The notes beneath the pieces are model-generated. The model was not told where the DNA came from. It searched no databases and saw only the letters and a list, made by a program, of their open reading frames with translations. Made by a program: the position numbers and the translations under genes. Below, in pieces: positions 6,631 to 54,410 of a DNA stretch of 64,000 bases. The stretch is from Bacteroidota bacterium (GTDB taxonomy: Bacteria; Bacteroidota; Bacteroidia; Chitinophagales; Chitinophagaceae): assembly GCA_030706635.1 (NCBI GenBank), contig JAUZOD010000004.1, forward strand, positions 62,001 to 126,000. The letters run 5' to 3'. Positions within the stretch are counted from its first letter, which is position 1. Each line of letters starts with the position of its first letter.

Positions 6631-6954
6631 CAGCAGAAAATCATTTTAGACGAATTCGAAAAAATACGATTTATTCGGGAAACGGGAAATTTTGACGTTC
6701 AGAAGACCATGTCACCGGTTTACTGGTCGAATCATACACAAATCAATCAGGTGATATATACCGGGGATTTCTGTCGTCCCCTTGCAGAATTGACAATTTC
6801 CTTATATTTTTAACCCATTCCATCCAATAATTGGCGCAATACTTGCGTTAAGGCCATGATTCTCCTCCTTTTTCCAATTTCCGATGTATTTGCCGCCGCT
6901 GTAAAATCCATATTCGTTGCATGACCCCATCATCCGTCAACGAAATTGTTAAAC

Positions 6955-47559: not shown

Positions 47560-48027
47560 GTGGCTTACGAGAATAATGACAAAAGGATGGAGAGTGTTTA
47601 CAGCAAAAGGATCAGGGCCGGTAAACGTAGAACCTATTTTTTTGATGTGCGCGCTACCCGGAGCAATGATTATTACCTGACGATTACGGAAAGCCGTAAG
47701 AAGTTCAATGAAGAAGGGTACGACCGGCATAAAATTTTTCTCTACAAAGAAGACTTTAATAAATTCATCAAGGCTTTAACGGAAGCCGTTGACTATGTCA
47801 AGACCGACCTGATGCCCGATTTTGATTTTGACGCTTTTAACCACGATCAGATTCCGGAGAATGGGGAGAATGGCGTTCATGAAAACGGCGAGTCCCGAAG
47901 TACTGAAACTTACCGGGATCCGGTAGTGCAGGTTTCAGAAGCTGAAATAAAAGATGAAGCACCTGCAACGGCGCCCGCCCCATCATCTTCCGGTAGTGAT
48001 CACCTGGAAGAAGTTGATAAATGGTAA
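47560..48027 (+). CDS. DUF3276 family protein (PUR-alpha-like nucleic-acid-binding fold), GTG start
   Basis: VYSKRIRAGKRRTYFFDVRATRSNDYYLTITESRKKFNEEGYDRHKIFLYKEDFNKFIKALTEAVDYVK is conserved in DUF3276; acidic variable C-terminus. Confidence 0.9.
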   Translation: MAYENNDKRMESVYSKRIRAGKRRTYFFDVRATRSNDYYLTITESRKKFNEEGYDRHKIFLYKEDFNKFIKALTEAVDYVKTDLMPDFDFDAFNHDQIPENGENGVHENGESRSTETYRDPVVQVSEAEIKDEAPATAPAPSSSGSDHLEEVDKW

Positions 48028-48033
48028 TTTTTT

Positions 48034-48059
48034 AAGCCTCCACCCCCGGAGGCTTTTTT
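48034..48059 (+). terminator. Rho-independent terminator after the DUF3276 gene
   Basis: AAGCCTCC-ACCCCC-GGAGGCTTTTTT. Confidence 0.85.
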
Positions 48060-48065
48060 ATTGAT

Positions 48066-48079
48066 GGATGACTGTTGAC
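48066..48079 (-). repeat. Heptad-type repeat, inverted copy (GGATGACTGTTGAC)
   Basis: Perfect reverse complement of 48168-48181 (GTCAACAGTCATCC). Confidence 0.75.
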
Positions 48080-48167
48080 CAACTACTGTAAAATCTTAAC
48101 AGCCGAAGTAATATTGACTTGGCAATTCACGTTGATTGACTCAGTCGGAGATTTACAATGAAAGTCC

Positions 48168-48195
48168 GTCAACAGTCATCCGTCAACAGTCAACA
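48168..48195 (+). repeat. Four-unit 7-nt array: GTCAACA GTCATCC GTCAACA GTCAACA
   Basis: Read directly; perfect 7-nt register, ends 15 nt outside the stop of the minus-strand glycosyltransferase gene. Confidence 0.85.
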
Positions 48196-48210
48196 ATTTC
48201 CACAAGCTAA

Positions 48211-49317
48211 CTACTTCTCAATAAACTCCCCCGCTCTGCGCGTAATGTTTCCCCAGTAAAAATGATCGTAGAAGCGGGCGGGAACATCCCGTTTTTTTTC
48301 TGTGCCCTGAATAATGGAGTCGGCAAAGGCCATCCAGTCCTCATCTTTACAAACCTGCAGCTTTCCGCCGCAAAGCAGCGGATCCACACCGACGGAGCCG
48401 CTCTCTGTTGAAACTGCATTCAGGTTGTACCCCAGGGCCTCCACCAGTTTGGTTTTAATTCCGCCGCCGGTAATCACAGGATTTAAAAAAACATTACATC
48501 CCTGCAGGTAAAGTTCCAGATCCTCGGCAAATCCAACGACCTGCACCGCGGGAAAAGTTTCACTAAAAAATTTATCGGGTATATCAATTCCGCAGATCAG
48601 CAGGAAATAAGGGAATGCTTTATGCTGCAGAATTGGATTCACACGATAGAGCAGGTTCTCCAGAGCATCCAGGTTCGGCCGGTATTTGAATGCGCCGTTG
48701 AAAAAGAGAAGAGGTATCTCCCTGGAAAGCCCATATTGCTTATGCAGTACGTTCTGGGCTGTATCAACCGCGACCGGAGAAGGAGGGGACGGTATTTCTA
48801 TGCCAAAACTTACCGTGAGGCAGCGGGCCGATTGCAGCCCGAACTTCCAGATGGCATACTGCCGGTCAGAATCGGAAATGAAGAAATTGTAATCCGCCTG
48901 CCGGTGTGTATATTTTTCATAAGCCCATAAGATGGGCCACCACCATTTTCCCAAACTCTTCCATCGGTTCCCCTCCAGATTGTGAGAATGCACAACGAGT
49001 TTTATTCCGCAAGACTTTTTCAACAGCACACCCAGCCAACCATAATACGGATGCTCCAGGATGAGGTGACTGGCCTTTGTTTCCCTAAGGATCCTGCGTA
49101 TCCGGAAAAAATAAAGCGGATTGATATACCGGAAAGAGGTACTGGAAAGTATGTTGAGCAAACGATATCCTTCTGCCAGCCGCGGATCATTTTTTTCCGT
49201 GGTGATACAGGTAACCTGGTGATACCGCGAGAAATATTTATAGAATAAGGCGATTCCCTTTTGTCCCCCGGTGCGGGCGGGAAGAAAGGGATAGGAAACA
49301 AGGGAAACGATGTTCAT
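48211..49317 (-). CDS. Glycosyltransferase, GT4/group 1-like
   Basis: YPFLPARTGGQKGIALFYKYFSRYHQVTCITTEKND...HLILEHPYYGWLGVLLKKSCGIKLVVHSHNLEGNRW...LLFFNGAFKYRPNLDALENLL...CNVFLNPVITGGGIKTKLVEALGYNLNAVSTESGSVGVDP. Confidence 0.85.
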   Translation of the reverse strand: MNIVSLVSYPFLPARTGGQKGIALFYKYFSRYHQVTCITTEKNDPRLAEGYRLLNILSSTSFRYINPLYFFRIRRILRETKASHLILEHPYYGWLGVLLKKSCGIKLVVHSHNLEGNRWKSLGKWWWPILWAYEKYTHRQADYNFFISDSDRQYAIWKFGLQSARCLTVSFGIEIPSPPSPVAVDTAQNVLHKQYGLSREIPLLFFNGAFKYRPNLDALENLLYRVNPILQHKAFPYFLLICGIDIPDKFFSETFPAVQVVGFAEDLELYLQGCNVFLNPVITGGGIKTKLVEALGYNLNAVSTESGSVGVDPLLCGGKLQVCKDEDWMAFADSIIQGTEKKRDVPARFYDHFYWGNITRRAGEFIEK

Positions 49318-49343
49318 GTGGTGTGAATGGGTGACTGTATTTC

Positions 49344-49363
49344 GTTGACGGATGACGGTCGAC
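49344..49363 (-). repeat. Heptad-type repeat, inverted copy (GTTGAC GGATGAC GGTCGAC)
   Basis: 7-nt register; near-inverse of 49403-49415. Confidence 0.65.
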
Positions 49364-49395
49364 CGGGCTTAGCTGCGAATCCGCACCCGATATCC

Positions 49396-49422
49396 GTCCA
49401 CCATCATCCGTCAACCGTCAAC
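49396..49422 (+). repeat. Heptad array GTCCACC ATCATCC GTCAACC GTCAAC overlapping the 3' end of the YfhO gene
   Basis: Read directly. On the minus strand it encodes the YfhO C-terminal residues LTVDG and the TGA stop. Confidence 0.75.
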
Positions 49423-51938
49423 TTTTTCTCCCGTTTCCCCCGCACAAGCTGAACCACCGCGGCTATCAGCAACAGGTACGTGAGTATCGCAGCCCACACA
49501 CTAATGCGGTTGCCGGTCACGTAAGACTGCGGTTCAAAGCGGAATTCAATGGTATGCGAACCGGCAGGAACAGCCATCCCGCGAAGCACATAATCCACTT
49601 TGGCATAAGGTGATTTCTTACCATCTACATAGGCGTCCCAGCCTTTATGATAATAGATTTCGCTGAACACGACAAACTGATTTGTCTTTGCCTGGAACCG
49701 GTATGATATTTTATCATTTAGATTTTCAATCAGTTTCACACTGGCCGTGGAATCCACAATTGGCATAAAGGGTATATCTGCTTCATAAGATTTCTGAACA
49801 ACGGCTGTGTCCCGCAGATGCACCGTATTGAGTGCGGCCATTTCCTCATCGGCCGTAGATACGTACTTAATGGCAGAGACCAGCCAGCAGGAACCGAATG
49901 CGCCTGGATTTAACATGGCGACATCCTCCTTACCGTCTGGACCCTTCCGGATAATGTATTTTGTATTCAGCATATCATATACCTGCTGATTCCCTTTGGC
50001 CAGCTGGTGTTCGATCAGATCGTTGTACAAAGCAAGCTTGGCCGGATGATAACCTCCTACAGAATTGTGATAGTAGGAAGCGTGTGAATCCTGGAATGGA
50101 TCGCCACTGGTTTCGTCCAGCACCCGGAAATTTTTTTCGGGATCTGCTTTTATCTTTTGATCGGCATCCGACATGCTGAAAGATTCTTCGATGTTCTCCG
50201 GCTCTACATAAGTATCATCATTCAGGTATTTTTTCCCTTCCGCCATTAAATCATAGGAGCTGATTACAAGCAAGCCTGCTAACAAAACCGAAGGCTTTAT
50301 CTTATTGCTGAGATAAAACCAAATAAGACCTGCTGCAAGTAAAACGAAAATGATACTTCTGATGAGATCAGCTTCAAAAATCCCCTTGCGATCCTCCTGC
50401 AGGCCAGACATCATCCCATTTACGATCTGACCTGCCTGTTGCTGCATTTCGGGCGTCGGCTGCTTGCCGCGGGCCATCTGCTGAACAAGGTTATTGGCAA
50501 AGTTCTCTTTAAAGCGGCCGTCCGTTGTGGATTTGTAGTCGCTCATGATATACACGAGAAAACTAAGCAGGACGAGACCACCCGTGATGTACAAAACTTT
50601 TTTAAATTTCTTCAGGATCAATTCCCTTTGGTCCCTGCTTTCCAATAATTCCTGCAATCCCAGCACGGCGAGAAGAGGAAAAGCAAGCTGGGGCATGACC
50701 AGCGCCATAGCGGGAGAACGGAACTTATTATAATAAGGAAGATGATCGAACAAAAAATAATTAAAGAAGGAAAGATTTTTACCCCAGGCAAGCATTATAC
50801 CCACGACGGCAATCGCCAGTATCCACCATTTATGCCAGCTCTTCACATATATCATTCCCAGAATAAACAAAAAGCAGATGACAGCGCCAAGATATACAGG
50901 CCCGGAAGTAAAAGGCTGGTCTCCCCAGTAAGACCTCGAATTGGCGATGCGGATGGCATTATCTTCCGGGTAACCAATCTCTGACAGTTTATCCGCAAAT
51001 TTTGAACTTCCTGTGATTTCCTTTCCAGACGTGCCGCCACCCTGCATTCCGGGAACAAAAAGCGTAAGGGTTTCGGGAATGCCGTAACTCCACATGAAAG
51101 CGTAATCTTTATCCAGCCCGCCCTTGGTCTTATTCTTGCTGTCAGTTTGGGTCAACTCTGATTTGCCGCCTCTCATTGTTTCCGTTGCATATTCTTTCGT
51201 GGGCAGCATCGTCAGCGCAAAATTCATAAATCCAACGATCAGGGATAAGGCAATCAGGGAAAAGGCGATAAGCCAGTGTTTGTATTTTTTTTCTTTCCAG
51301 GAGTCGAACAGGTGTACAATGGCAATGATGGCAAGAATGAGTCCGGTATAATAGACGATCTGCAGATGCTGGGTACTCACTTGCATCCCGAAGAACAGGG
51401 TAGTGACTGCCGCGCCGCCCAGGTACCGGCCACGAAGTATCAGCAGAACGCCGGCGACCACGGCGGGCATATAACCGATCGCCATCAGTTCGGTTTCATG
51501 CCCTGCTGCAACCAGAATGGGATTAAAAGTTGCGAAAGCATAAGCAACGGAACCCAGAACGGAAAGCAGAAAATTCAACCGGAACACCTGCGTCAGGATG
51601 TAGAAACAGACACTGGCAATGAAGAAATAAAAAATGGGTTTGGGCAGGCCCAGATTAAAGAGATAACCAAAATAACCAATCGTAATAGAGGAAGTGGCGT
51701 CCATCGCAATATTATATGCGGGCATTCCACTGAACATGCTTTCCGTCCACAAGGGAAAATGACCATGCTTAGCCTTGAAATCATTTGACTGCTTTGCCAT
51801 CGCCGTGTATCCAATCACGTCTGACTGATAAAGCACTTTACCTTCCAGTGCCGTCTTGTTGTACACGATGGACACCAACAGAAATAGAATGATGGCAAGG
51901 ATGTGCGGAACGGCTTTTTTCAGAAAGGATGAATTCAT
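49404..51938 (-). CDS. YfhO family multi-pass membrane protein
   Basis: YFGYLFNLGLPKPIFYFFIASVCFYILTQVFRLNFLLSVLGSVAYAFATFNPILVAAGHETELMAIGYMPAVVAGVLLIL; C-terminal VVFSEIYYHKGWDAYVDGKKSPYAKVDYVLRGMAVPAGSHTIEFRFEP is typical of YfhO. Internal ATG 51938 is preferred. Confidence 0.9.
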   Translation of the reverse strand: MNSSFLKKAVPHILAIILFLLVSIVYNKTALEGKVLYQSDVIGYTAMAKQSNDFKAKHGHFPLWTESMFSGMPAYNIAMDATSSITIGYFGYLFNLGLPKPIFYFFIASVCFYILTQVFRLNFLLSVLGSVAYAFATFNPILVAAGHETELMAIGYMPAVVAGVLLILRGRYLGGAAVTTLFFGMQVSTQHLQIVYYTGLILAIIAIVHLFDSWKEKKYKHWLIAFSLIALSLIVGFMNFALTMLPTKEYATETMRGGKSELTQTDSKNKTKGGLDKDYAFMWSYGIPETLTLFVPGMQGGGTSGKEITGSSKFADKLSEIGYPEDNAIRIANSRSYWGDQPFTSGPVYLGAVICFLFILGMIYVKSWHKWWILAIAVVGIMLAWGKNLSFFNYFLFDHLPYYNKFRSPAMALVMPQLAFPLLAVLGLQELLESRDQRELILKKFKKVLYITGGLVLLSFLVYIMSDYKSTTDGRFKENFANNLVQQMARGKQPTPEMQQQAGQIVNGMMSGLQEDRKGIFEADLIRSIIFVLLAAGLIWFYLSNKIKPSVLLAGLLVISSYDLMAEGKKYLNDDTYVEPENIEESFSMSDADQKIKADPEKNFRVLDETSGDPFQDSHASYYHNSVGGYHPAKLALYNDLIEHQLAKGNQQVYDMLNTKYIIRKGPDGKEDVAMLNPGAFGSCWLVSAIKYVSTADEEMAALNTVHLRDTAVVQKSYEADIPFMPIVDSTASVKLIENLNDKISYRFQAKTNQFVVFSEIYYHKGWDAYVDGKKSPYAKVDYVLRGMAVPAGSHTIEFRFEPQSYVTGNRISVWAAILTYLLLIAAVVQLVRGKREKKLTVDG

Positions 51939-51978
51939 ACAGATCAAAGTGATTAATCACACAAAATAATGATATTTT

Positions 51979-52284
51979 ATGCAGATATTTGGATTTTTGA
52001 ACTATATGGGTTTGCTTAGAATGCTCAACCGGTCTGCTTTTATTTGCAACATCTGTTTTCTGTTTGCGATCCTTCTTCTCCGGATGCGGAATCCCGTTAG
52101 TCCCGGCCTGGCCTCCCTGATCATCGTGATGGGGTTTGTTCTTTCTGTTGTTTTAAATCTGATCGTAAATAGCTGGCACCTGATCAGCCGCTTGCGGAAA
52201 AGATCATTGAGCGCAATTCCCGCCCCGTTCATTTATCTGAATGCCGGTTTTATGGTCATTCAATTACTTCTGTTTATCAAATGA
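51979..52284 (+). CDS. Small integral membrane protein of unknown function
   Basis: 101 aa with three hydrophobic segments; 3' end overlaps the convergent GNAT gene by 21 nt. Confidence 0.6.
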   Translation: MQIFGFLNYMGLLRMLNRSAFICNICFLFAILLLRMRNPVSPGLASLIIVMGFVLSVVLNLIVNSWHLISRLRKRSLSAIPAPFIYLNAGFMVIQLLLFIK

Positions 52285-52815
52285 TCCGGCGAATCCTGGT
52301 TGATCGGTACCATCAGCCAAACTGAGTTCCATCACATAGTCATTCATAAAAAACCCATTTCCTATATCCGTATCTTTTTCGCCCGTTACCAAAAATCCAA
52401 GCTTTTCATAGAAATATCTGGCTTTATTATAGCGGTTAACATCCAGCTGTAAAGTTTGACAGCCGGCCTCTTTTACCAGGCTCACTATATAGTCCAGCAG
52501 GAATCTGCCCAATCCTTTTCCCTGCAATGCAGGGTCCACATAAATTTTATTAAGCTTGCCTTTTTTCGTCTTTTCAAATAAAGCATAAGAGGCAAAGCCT
52601 GCAGGCTTCGAGTCAAATTCCAGGATCAGAAAATGATGATGATATTCAACCATCTGCTGAGTCAGGGAATGGATACTGTACATCTGTCTCAGCATATATT
52701 CAATCTGCACGGCATCTAAAATAGATGAATAGGTTGGCGGCCAGATCTTTTCGGCAAGCGCCTTTACGATGGCGAGATCCTTCTTTTCCGCAGAACGAAT
52801 TAAAGCGTTCTTCAT
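52264..52815 (-). CDS. GNAT family N-acetyltransferase
   Basis: IRSAEKKDLAIVKALAEKIWPPTYSSIL...GKLNKIYVDPALQGKGLGRFLLDYIVSLVKEAGCQTLQLDVNRYNKARYFYEKLGFLVTGEKD. Confidence 0.93.
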   Translation of the reverse strand: MKNALIRSAEKKDLAIVKALAEKIWPPTYSSILDAVQIEYMLRQMYSIHSLTQQMVEYHHHFLILEFDSKPAGFASYALFEKTKKGKLNKIYVDPALQGKGLGRFLLDYIVSLVKEAGCQTLQLDVNRYNKARYFYEKLGFLVTGEKDTDIGNGFFMNDYVMELSLADGTDQPGFAGSFDKQK

Positions 52816-52935
52816 CGTAAAAATTTATTTCCTGGGTCAGCTCCAAAATTAATTCGGGAACTCTTTACCGTTCGCTCATTTTAGAATACACTTTACGTAT
52901 TCAAACGTACTGACATAGATTTACGCCGAAAGCCC

Positions 52936-52963
52936 GTCATCCGTCAATTGTCATCGGTCAACC
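52936..52963 (+). repeat. Heptad array GTCATCC GTCAATT GTCATCG GTCAACC
   Basis: Four 7-nt units read directly; ends 4 nt before the last base of the minus-strand serine dehydratase stop codon (52968). Confidence 0.75.
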
Positions 52964-52967
52964 AAAA

Positions 52968-54410
52968 TCAACATTCACTCAGGCTAATCGGAATATGAAC
53001 AGCCAGTCCGCCATCGGATGTTTCTTTGTATTTGCTGTTCATGTCCAGTGCCGTGTCCCACATGGTTCGAATTACTGCGTCCAGGGACACTTTGGCAAAA
53101 TCCGGTTTACTCTGAAGCGCCAGTTGGGAGGCAGTGATCGCTTTGATAGCTCCCATGGTATTGCGTTCGATACAGGGAATCTGCACCAGGCCCCCGATGG
53201 GATCGCAGGTGAGCCCGAGATGATGTTCCATGGCAATCTCCGCCGCCATAAGCGCCTGCCGCTGAGTTCCTCCGAGGCTTTCGGTTAATGCAGCGGCGGC
53301 CATTGCTGAAGACACCCCTATTTCGGCCTGGCATCCGCCCATCGCAGCCGAAAGGGTTGCCCCCTTCTTAAAAATGCTGCCTGTTTCTCCGGCAGTGAGC
53401 AGGAAGGATATGATCTTTTCTTCCGTGCCGCCGCAGAAACAAATGAAATATTGTAACACGGCGGGAATTACCCCGGCAGCCCCATTGGTTGGGGCCGTCA
53501 CCACTTTACCAAAAGATGCATTGACCTCATTTACCGCAAGGGCGAAACAGCTTACCCAATCCAGGATATATTTAAAATCCTTTCCTCCATCCCGGATGGC
53601 GGTGATCCAACCATCGTACCCTGCATAAGTTCTTCCTTCCAGTAATTTTTTATTCAATCCGGCGGCCCGCCGGCTCACATTTAGCCCTCCGGGTAGAACG
53701 CCAGCCGTATGGCAACCAATATACATGCACTCCTTCATCACACCCCATATGTGCAGCAATTCCTCTTTAATGGCCGTCTCTTCCCTCCACACACGCTCAT
53801 TCTCCATAACTACTTCATCGATGGCCATTCCGGTCTTCATGCACCAGTGAAGCAGGTCATTGGCGGAATCAATAGGAAAGGGAAGCTGCAAGCCGGATCC
53901 GGCATTGGCAGGCTGTCCTTCCATTTCAATAAACCCTCCGCCAATGGAGTAATAGGTTTCTGAAACCGGCTCGGATTGCGCAAATTCCGCCAGGAATCGC
54001 ATGGCATTGGGATGGTAAGGCAGGGATTCGCTTACCCTGAATTCTATATCTGACTGCAGATCAAAGGGAATTTCAATTCCATCAGCGGGCCTGAGGCATT
54101 TGTTTCGCCCTATGGCAGTCAGAATACCGGGGATGGAGCCCGAATCGATCAGCACGGGATCATAACCGGCCAATCCCAGCTGAATGGCGACATCGGTTCC
54201 ATGACCTTTTCCCGTTTTGGCCAGGGATCCAAAAAGCAATACCCTTATCTTTTTCAACCCGGGCAGGAGGCCCTTTTGATCCAGAAACCGGATGAATGAC
54301 TGAGCCGCCCGCCAGGGACCGAGGGTGTGCGAACTGGACGGACCAACCCCTATCTTAAAAATATCAAAAACCGATATGGGATCGTAATGCAATGCTTGTG
54401 GTTTGACCAA
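52968..54410 (-). CDS. sdaA: L-serine ammonia-lyase (single-chain, iron-sulfur type)
   Basis: [117 protein letters not shown]. Confidence 0.95.

Follow-up and report, generated by a model that had tools for sequence, protein, structure and literature searches.

Palindromes of the ERIC type, which are comparable to the element described here, are dispersed between genes in many copies, and the heptanucleotide STRRs of cyanobacteria have been described as tandem direct repeats. STRRs reportedly also occur within rnpB of heterocyst-forming species (Vioque 1997). In Xanthomonas, GGGAATC arrays form 70-75 convergent inverted pairs per genome, mostly intergenic, and many arrays overlap a stop codon or lie within 50 bp of one (PMC4692102). 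TAACTGA repeats are known from Beggiatoaceae, Cyanobacteria and five Bacteroidetes (PMC4679880), and CGTC-tagged REPs have no known transposase (PMC3733652, PMC3116915). The earlier note on this DNA held that its heptad family had not been described in Bacteroidota; this stands for the hairpin family, of which no description was found (the literature on Chitinophagaceae palindromic repeats gave no match), but not for heptad arrays as such, given the TAACTGA arrays of five Bacteroidetes (PMC4679880).

The locus lies in a 64,000-nucleotide stretch (the window) of a Chitinophagaceae genome (G000). The flagged element comprises a left arm of two units (GGATGAC TGTTGAC, GGATGACTGTTGAC; 48066..48079, plus strand), an 88-bp centre (48080..48167, strand not assigned) and a right arm of four units (GTCAACA GTCATCC GTCAACA GTCAACA; 48168..48195, plus strand). 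It is flanked on the left by a DUF3276 (PF11680) gene (47560..48027, plus strand) with its own intrinsic-terminator-like hairpin (48034..48055, plus strand), distinct from the element, and on the right by a glycosyltransferase family 4 gene (48211..49317, minus strand). Much of what had been claimed for this site proved accurate: the 7-nt register of the right arm is exact and correctly placed, the left arm is the reverse complement of its first two units, and the DUF3276 terminator precedes the array. Only the right end of the centre (48147-48167, reverse complement GGACTTTCATTGTAAATCTCC) resembles one canonical half-core, the remainder being unrelated, and model R1 matches 48051-48196 with 42.7 bits (E 3.6e-8). 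The flagged array is a worn copy of a hairpin element of about 90 bp, half of whose core has been replaced by unrelated DNA.

The arrays at 49344, 49396 and 52936, listed in the earlier note as related, are real and do belong with the flagged one, and the first two are the arms of a single element, which that note had missed, together with the conserved 32-bp core and the loss of most of it from the flagged copy. This canonical copy consists of a left arm (GTTGACGGATGACGGTCGAC; 49344..49363, plus strand), a 32-bp imperfect-palindrome core (CGGGCTTAGCTGCGAATCCGCACCCGATATCC; 49364..49395, plus strand) and a right arm (49396..49422, plus strand), and is matched by model R1 with 72.5 bits over 49335-49424. 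The third is a half element, in which half a core (reverse complement GGGCTTTCGGCGTAAATCTAT; 52915..52935, minus strand) adjoins a single four-unit arm (GTCATCC GTCAATT GTCATCG GTCAAC; 52936..52962, plus strand) just past the stop codon of a serine dehydratase gene. The two-unit form proposed at 6929 (ATCATCCGTCAAC) is unconvincing alone, having two degenerate units, no partner and no core. The hairpins are strong as RNA and as DNA; z-scores of the window copies range from -3.6 to -6.8, and Rfam returned no curated family at gathering score for window positions 47900-53100.

Alignment of 23 copies, each turned the same way, gives the consensus (GGTTGAC)4 - sGACTTTAATTGCGAATTCGCACCTGAAATCs - (GTCAACC)4, the 32-bp core being GACTTTAATTGCGAATTCGCACCTGAAATC plus one base on either side, an imperfect palindrome whose halves differ recurrently (one has TTTATTGCG or TTTAGTTGCG, its counterpart CAGGTGCG). 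In most inverted pairs the centre measures exactly 32 bp, and arms of four units are the commonest (30 arrays in 1.19 Mb, against 21 of three units and only five of more than four). A covariance model built from 20 copies gave 147 strand-matches in G000 (best 107 bits), which correspond to about 75-80 places, since most hairpins match on both strands. Three-unit GTCAN3 arrays number four in the window, against none in 100 shuffles, and 252 genome-wide, against 32 for a reversed control pattern; inverted pairs number 114 per strand genome-wide, against none, with overlapping registers of one pair counted separately. G000 also holds copies with a longer core (56-67 bp), among them a subfamily with a related core of 56-63 bp (C76:27964-28069, C46:78071-78197 and C75:117953-118044), and core-less copies; at C1:224943-224972 and C1:270556-270585 just one C separates the two arms, which looks like a precise loss of the hairpin tip.

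Gene context was assessed in stretches totalling 1.19 of 4.58 Mb, with gene ends taken from a home-made ORF caller and several relatives represented by incomplete metagenome assemblies. Forty-three of 52 neighbouring gene ends fall inside an element or within 15 nt of one, compared with a random mean of 3.3 and a maximum of 10 in 2000 trials. Each of the 48 elements and part-elements lies between genes or overlaps a gene end, and no predicted gene contains one entirely; convergent gaps hold more of them than expected at random (13 vs 5.8) and divergent gaps fewer (9 vs 19.7), and in co-directional gaps 24 of 26 elements are nearer the stop and two nearer the start. The earlier note had named chance-level frequency and a lack of enrichment at gene 3' ends as outcomes that would count against it; neither refutes it, because array frequency across the genome is far above chance and 3'-end enrichment is strong. 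Under a strict rule a heptad TGA serves as the stop in 13 of 49 genes, and inspection by eye adds a few. The canonical element supplies one such end: a YfhO-domain membrane protein gene (49404..51947, minus strand) has its stop codon inside the element, the right arm encoding on its opposite strand the last residues, KLTVDG, and the TGA. The element is also present at the YfhO gene of G225, where the tail is identical, while in G211, G210 and G204 the final residues and a TAA are read from other heptad families; the YfhO end of G206 seems to carry a decayed remnant, and that of G222 has none.

Within the genus, 11 of 33 genomes, including G000, match the model and 22 do not; the two richest relatives give 127 and 94 strand-matches, and carriers include palsa_953 and CRAIB_MAG53, both metagenome assemblies. 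A core-bearing copy occupies the flagged site in G225 and G206, with the same core type but with GTTGATG-type units in both arms (GTTGACG in G000), and other species have unrelated heptads (GCTTAAG in G211, GTGAAAC in G222) or lack heptads there; the flagged copy represents the family in decayed form at a place where these two relatives keep a core-bearing copy. Eight syntenic element sites of G225 include four shared with G000 and four without a full element there, one of the latter retaining only a short arm remnant. A full 90-bp element also lies inside the RNase P RNA gene of G225 (gene at G225:C169, locus L176, 1652-2197, minus strand), in a peripheral helix that in rnpB of G000 holds a shorter insert of unrelated sequence. 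In other genera (G010, G184 and G112), elements of four units, a core of about 34 bp and four units occur with the heptad GTTGTTA and a similar core edge (GCCTTTA ... TGAAGTC); these may form one family with the G000 element.

The family is probably a non-autonomous palindromic mobile repeat, of the REP, ERIC or MITE kind, that settles at gene ends. The spreading unit would be the whole hairpin of about 90 bp, with four 7-bp units, the 32-bp core and four inverted units, which may insert widely and persist at the 3' ends of genes. No more than about three units in, a ribosome from either side would reach a TGA (or, in other heptad families, TAA or TAG), and persistence at gene 3' ends is proposed to follow from this early stop, because an insertion just before the native stop would exchange no more than a few terminal residues; the hairpin might in turn terminate the transcript or make it more stable. 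As in MITEs, there are terminal inverted repeats, no coding content, many copies, and presence or absence between genomes. Against this reading, no target-site duplication of at least 5 nt was found in 19 G000 copies, whose boundaries are uncertain, no transposase partner was found for the element, and G000 has no Y1 transposase. No pair with a long centre, as expected of ends shared with an autonomous transposon, was noticed in 1.19 Mb of G000. Relatives with about 65-90% protein identity still have elements at four of eight sites, a pattern that could point to retention for some function and not to mobility alone.

The two arms of one element resemble each other beyond the family likeness. 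Among 51 copies, arms of the same element show 90.7% Watson-Crick pairing, against 81.8% (sd 0.9) between elements, the maximum in 2000 shuffles of the arm-swap test being 84.6%; for GTTGAC copies alone the values are 89.4% within and 85.1% (sd 0.6) between elements. When columns were shuffled among the first 20 elements, paired cells showed no excess. Unit variants are mirrored at locus L183 (TTTATGG opposite CCATAAA and TTGATAG opposite CTATCAA) and at its G000 ortholog (TTCATAG opposite CTATGAA). Slippage would make the units within one arm alike, and template switching in the hairpin, or selection for pairing, would copy one arm onto the other; the arm matching may come from either of these two.

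The strongest competing explanation, which we nonetheless consider improbable, is that the copies are functional gene-end devices, each a bidirectional three-frame stop joined to a hairpin, selected for stopping translation and for terminating or protecting transcripts between genes. Evidence for it comes from a survey of about 1.9 Mb in 18 genomes of the family, in which array counts do not represent a random sample, because some DNA was fetched for holding elements; the direction of stops played no part in the fetching. Among the 74 inverted pairs the stops point inward in 71, are tied in three and never point outward, and inward stops occupy all three frames in 57 of the 74 left arms and in 55 of the 74 right arms. 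Five pairs have a reversed G/C skew, and even there stops are inward in three and tied in two. The arm pairing within elements, the enrichment in convergent gaps and the YfhO stop codons drawn from three heptad families in five species point the same way. The inward-stop signal is nevertheless partly compositional, since G exceeds C on the inward strand in 68 of 74 pairs and 28 of 32 units carry an inward stop where 20.4 are expected from unit composition; nor are these units independent, because they merge into four loose clusters. The GGGAATC unit of Xanthomonas, moreover, has no stop when read by hand (PMC4692102), and because its pairs run with G inward and without stops, the stop rule could in part be a side effect. 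Nine of the 48 elements lie between divergent genes, two thirds of the genus (22 of 33 genomes) does without a match, and the DUF3276 gene has a terminator of its own. As for transcript termination by the element itself, inspection of the aligned copies by eye found no consistent T tract after the hairpin, as an intrinsic terminator would have.

All 74 inverted pairs of the survey have period 7 or 8, although periods 5, 6, 9 and 10 were searched too, and in G000 tandem arrays number 63 for period 7, 32 for period 8 and at most three for any other period from 4 to 13. Neither a mobile repeat nor a gene-end device explains a period of 7 or 8 and never 5 or 10. We tentatively raise, as a generalization less likely than not, that inverted 7- or 8-nt arrays with inward stops might form a general class of gene-end elements in Chitinophagaceae, in which different species place different families on the same gene end, each supplying C-terminal residues and a stop, and a unit length not divisible by three makes the stops independent of frame. 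If the inward-stop rule is true, repeat elements repeatedly rewrite protein C-termini and stop codons in this bacterial family, and the old question of why bacteria favour 7-nt repeats gains a concrete system.

Several further arrays were observed. Imperfect octad arrays (ATTTGAAA, AATGTGTA) occur in G000 beyond the window as inverted pairs with stops inward (32 arrays in 1.19 Mb; e.g., C24:55610-55733, C46:15189-15289 and C78:34759-34880). Octad or heptad arrays lie at G000 contig ends (C78:1-76, C13:46-66 and C79:14-42), suggesting that such arrays interrupt the assembly. In G022, of the same family, loci L208 and L211 are very densely set with heptad arrays of several kinds, 18 in 120 kb (GTGAGAC, GGATGAC and GGATGTT).

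It is far less credible that the elements are simple STRR or LSSR heptanucleotide arrays made by slippage and paired in inversion by chance. In favour of this, periods 7 and 8 are nearly the sole tandem periods in these genomes, and in most of the genomes that Mrazek et al. surveyed (2007, cited in PMC4679880) no long repeat unit is commoner than the heptanucleotide. Tandem 7-nt units are indeed above chance here, as for STRRs and heptanucleotide SSRs, but the array is not the whole feature and its unit number does not vary freely. The four-unit arms, the fixed and conserved 32-bp core and model matches of up to 107 bits speak against slippage for core-bearing elements, and the likening of the feature to an STRR-type simple array is not supported, given the four-unit peak, the single core joining two arms and the dispersal of REP/ERIC/MITE type. 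Slippage may hold for core-less arrays, such as the 13 consecutive GTCAACT units at C76:48682-48769, which have neither partner nor core.

REPINs moved by a RAYT (Y1 tyrosine transposase) hardly deserve credence: the inverted doublet with a spacer, intergenic, palindromic and variable between species, would suit them, with inverted arms and a palindromic core, though the arms consist of tandem heptads. Against them, the GTAG tag was not noticed, Y1_Tnp (PF01797) is absent from G000, G225 and G206, the three richest carriers, and most non-carriers of the genus do have it, so that for these genomes a RAYT/REPIN origin can stand only if the assemblies lack a RAYT that is in fact there. An attC-like recombination site was rejected by eye, GTTGACN misfitting the reference motif GTTRRRY and the arms facing the other way. 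A Rho utilisation site, with regular YC dimers in the C-rich arm, was considered; that arm would be buried in the hairpin.

The mobile-hairpin reading may finally be set beside the known systems. With cyanobacterial STRRs the element shares its 7-nt units, and its presence in G225 rnpB recalls the heptad repeats reported in cyanobacterial rnpB; we know of no STRR with a fixed hairpin of four units, core and four units. Like REPs, REPINs and CGTC-tagged REPs, it is a many-copy, dispersed, intergenic palindrome downstream of genes, whereas REPs lack heptad arms, measure 20-40 bp, and combine stems of 5-13 bp with an unpaired tag, GTAG or CGTC (PMC3733652, PMC3116915). TAACTGA repeats are likewise intergenic 7-nt arrays with stop triplets within the unit, although those of Beggiatoaceae lie mostly just upstream of start codons, are direct rather than inverted and lack a core (PMC4679880). 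The GGGAATC arrays of Xanthomonas and GGGGA(T/C)T arrays of Nostoc differ in their stop-less, G-quadruplex-type unit and variable unit number, with no core reported in the accessible text, yet they share 7-nt units, a mostly intergenic location and a G-rich strand running inward (PMC4692102). With the present family, scattered remarks on bacterial heptads give way to a defined element that has a length, a core and a tie to stop codons open to test.
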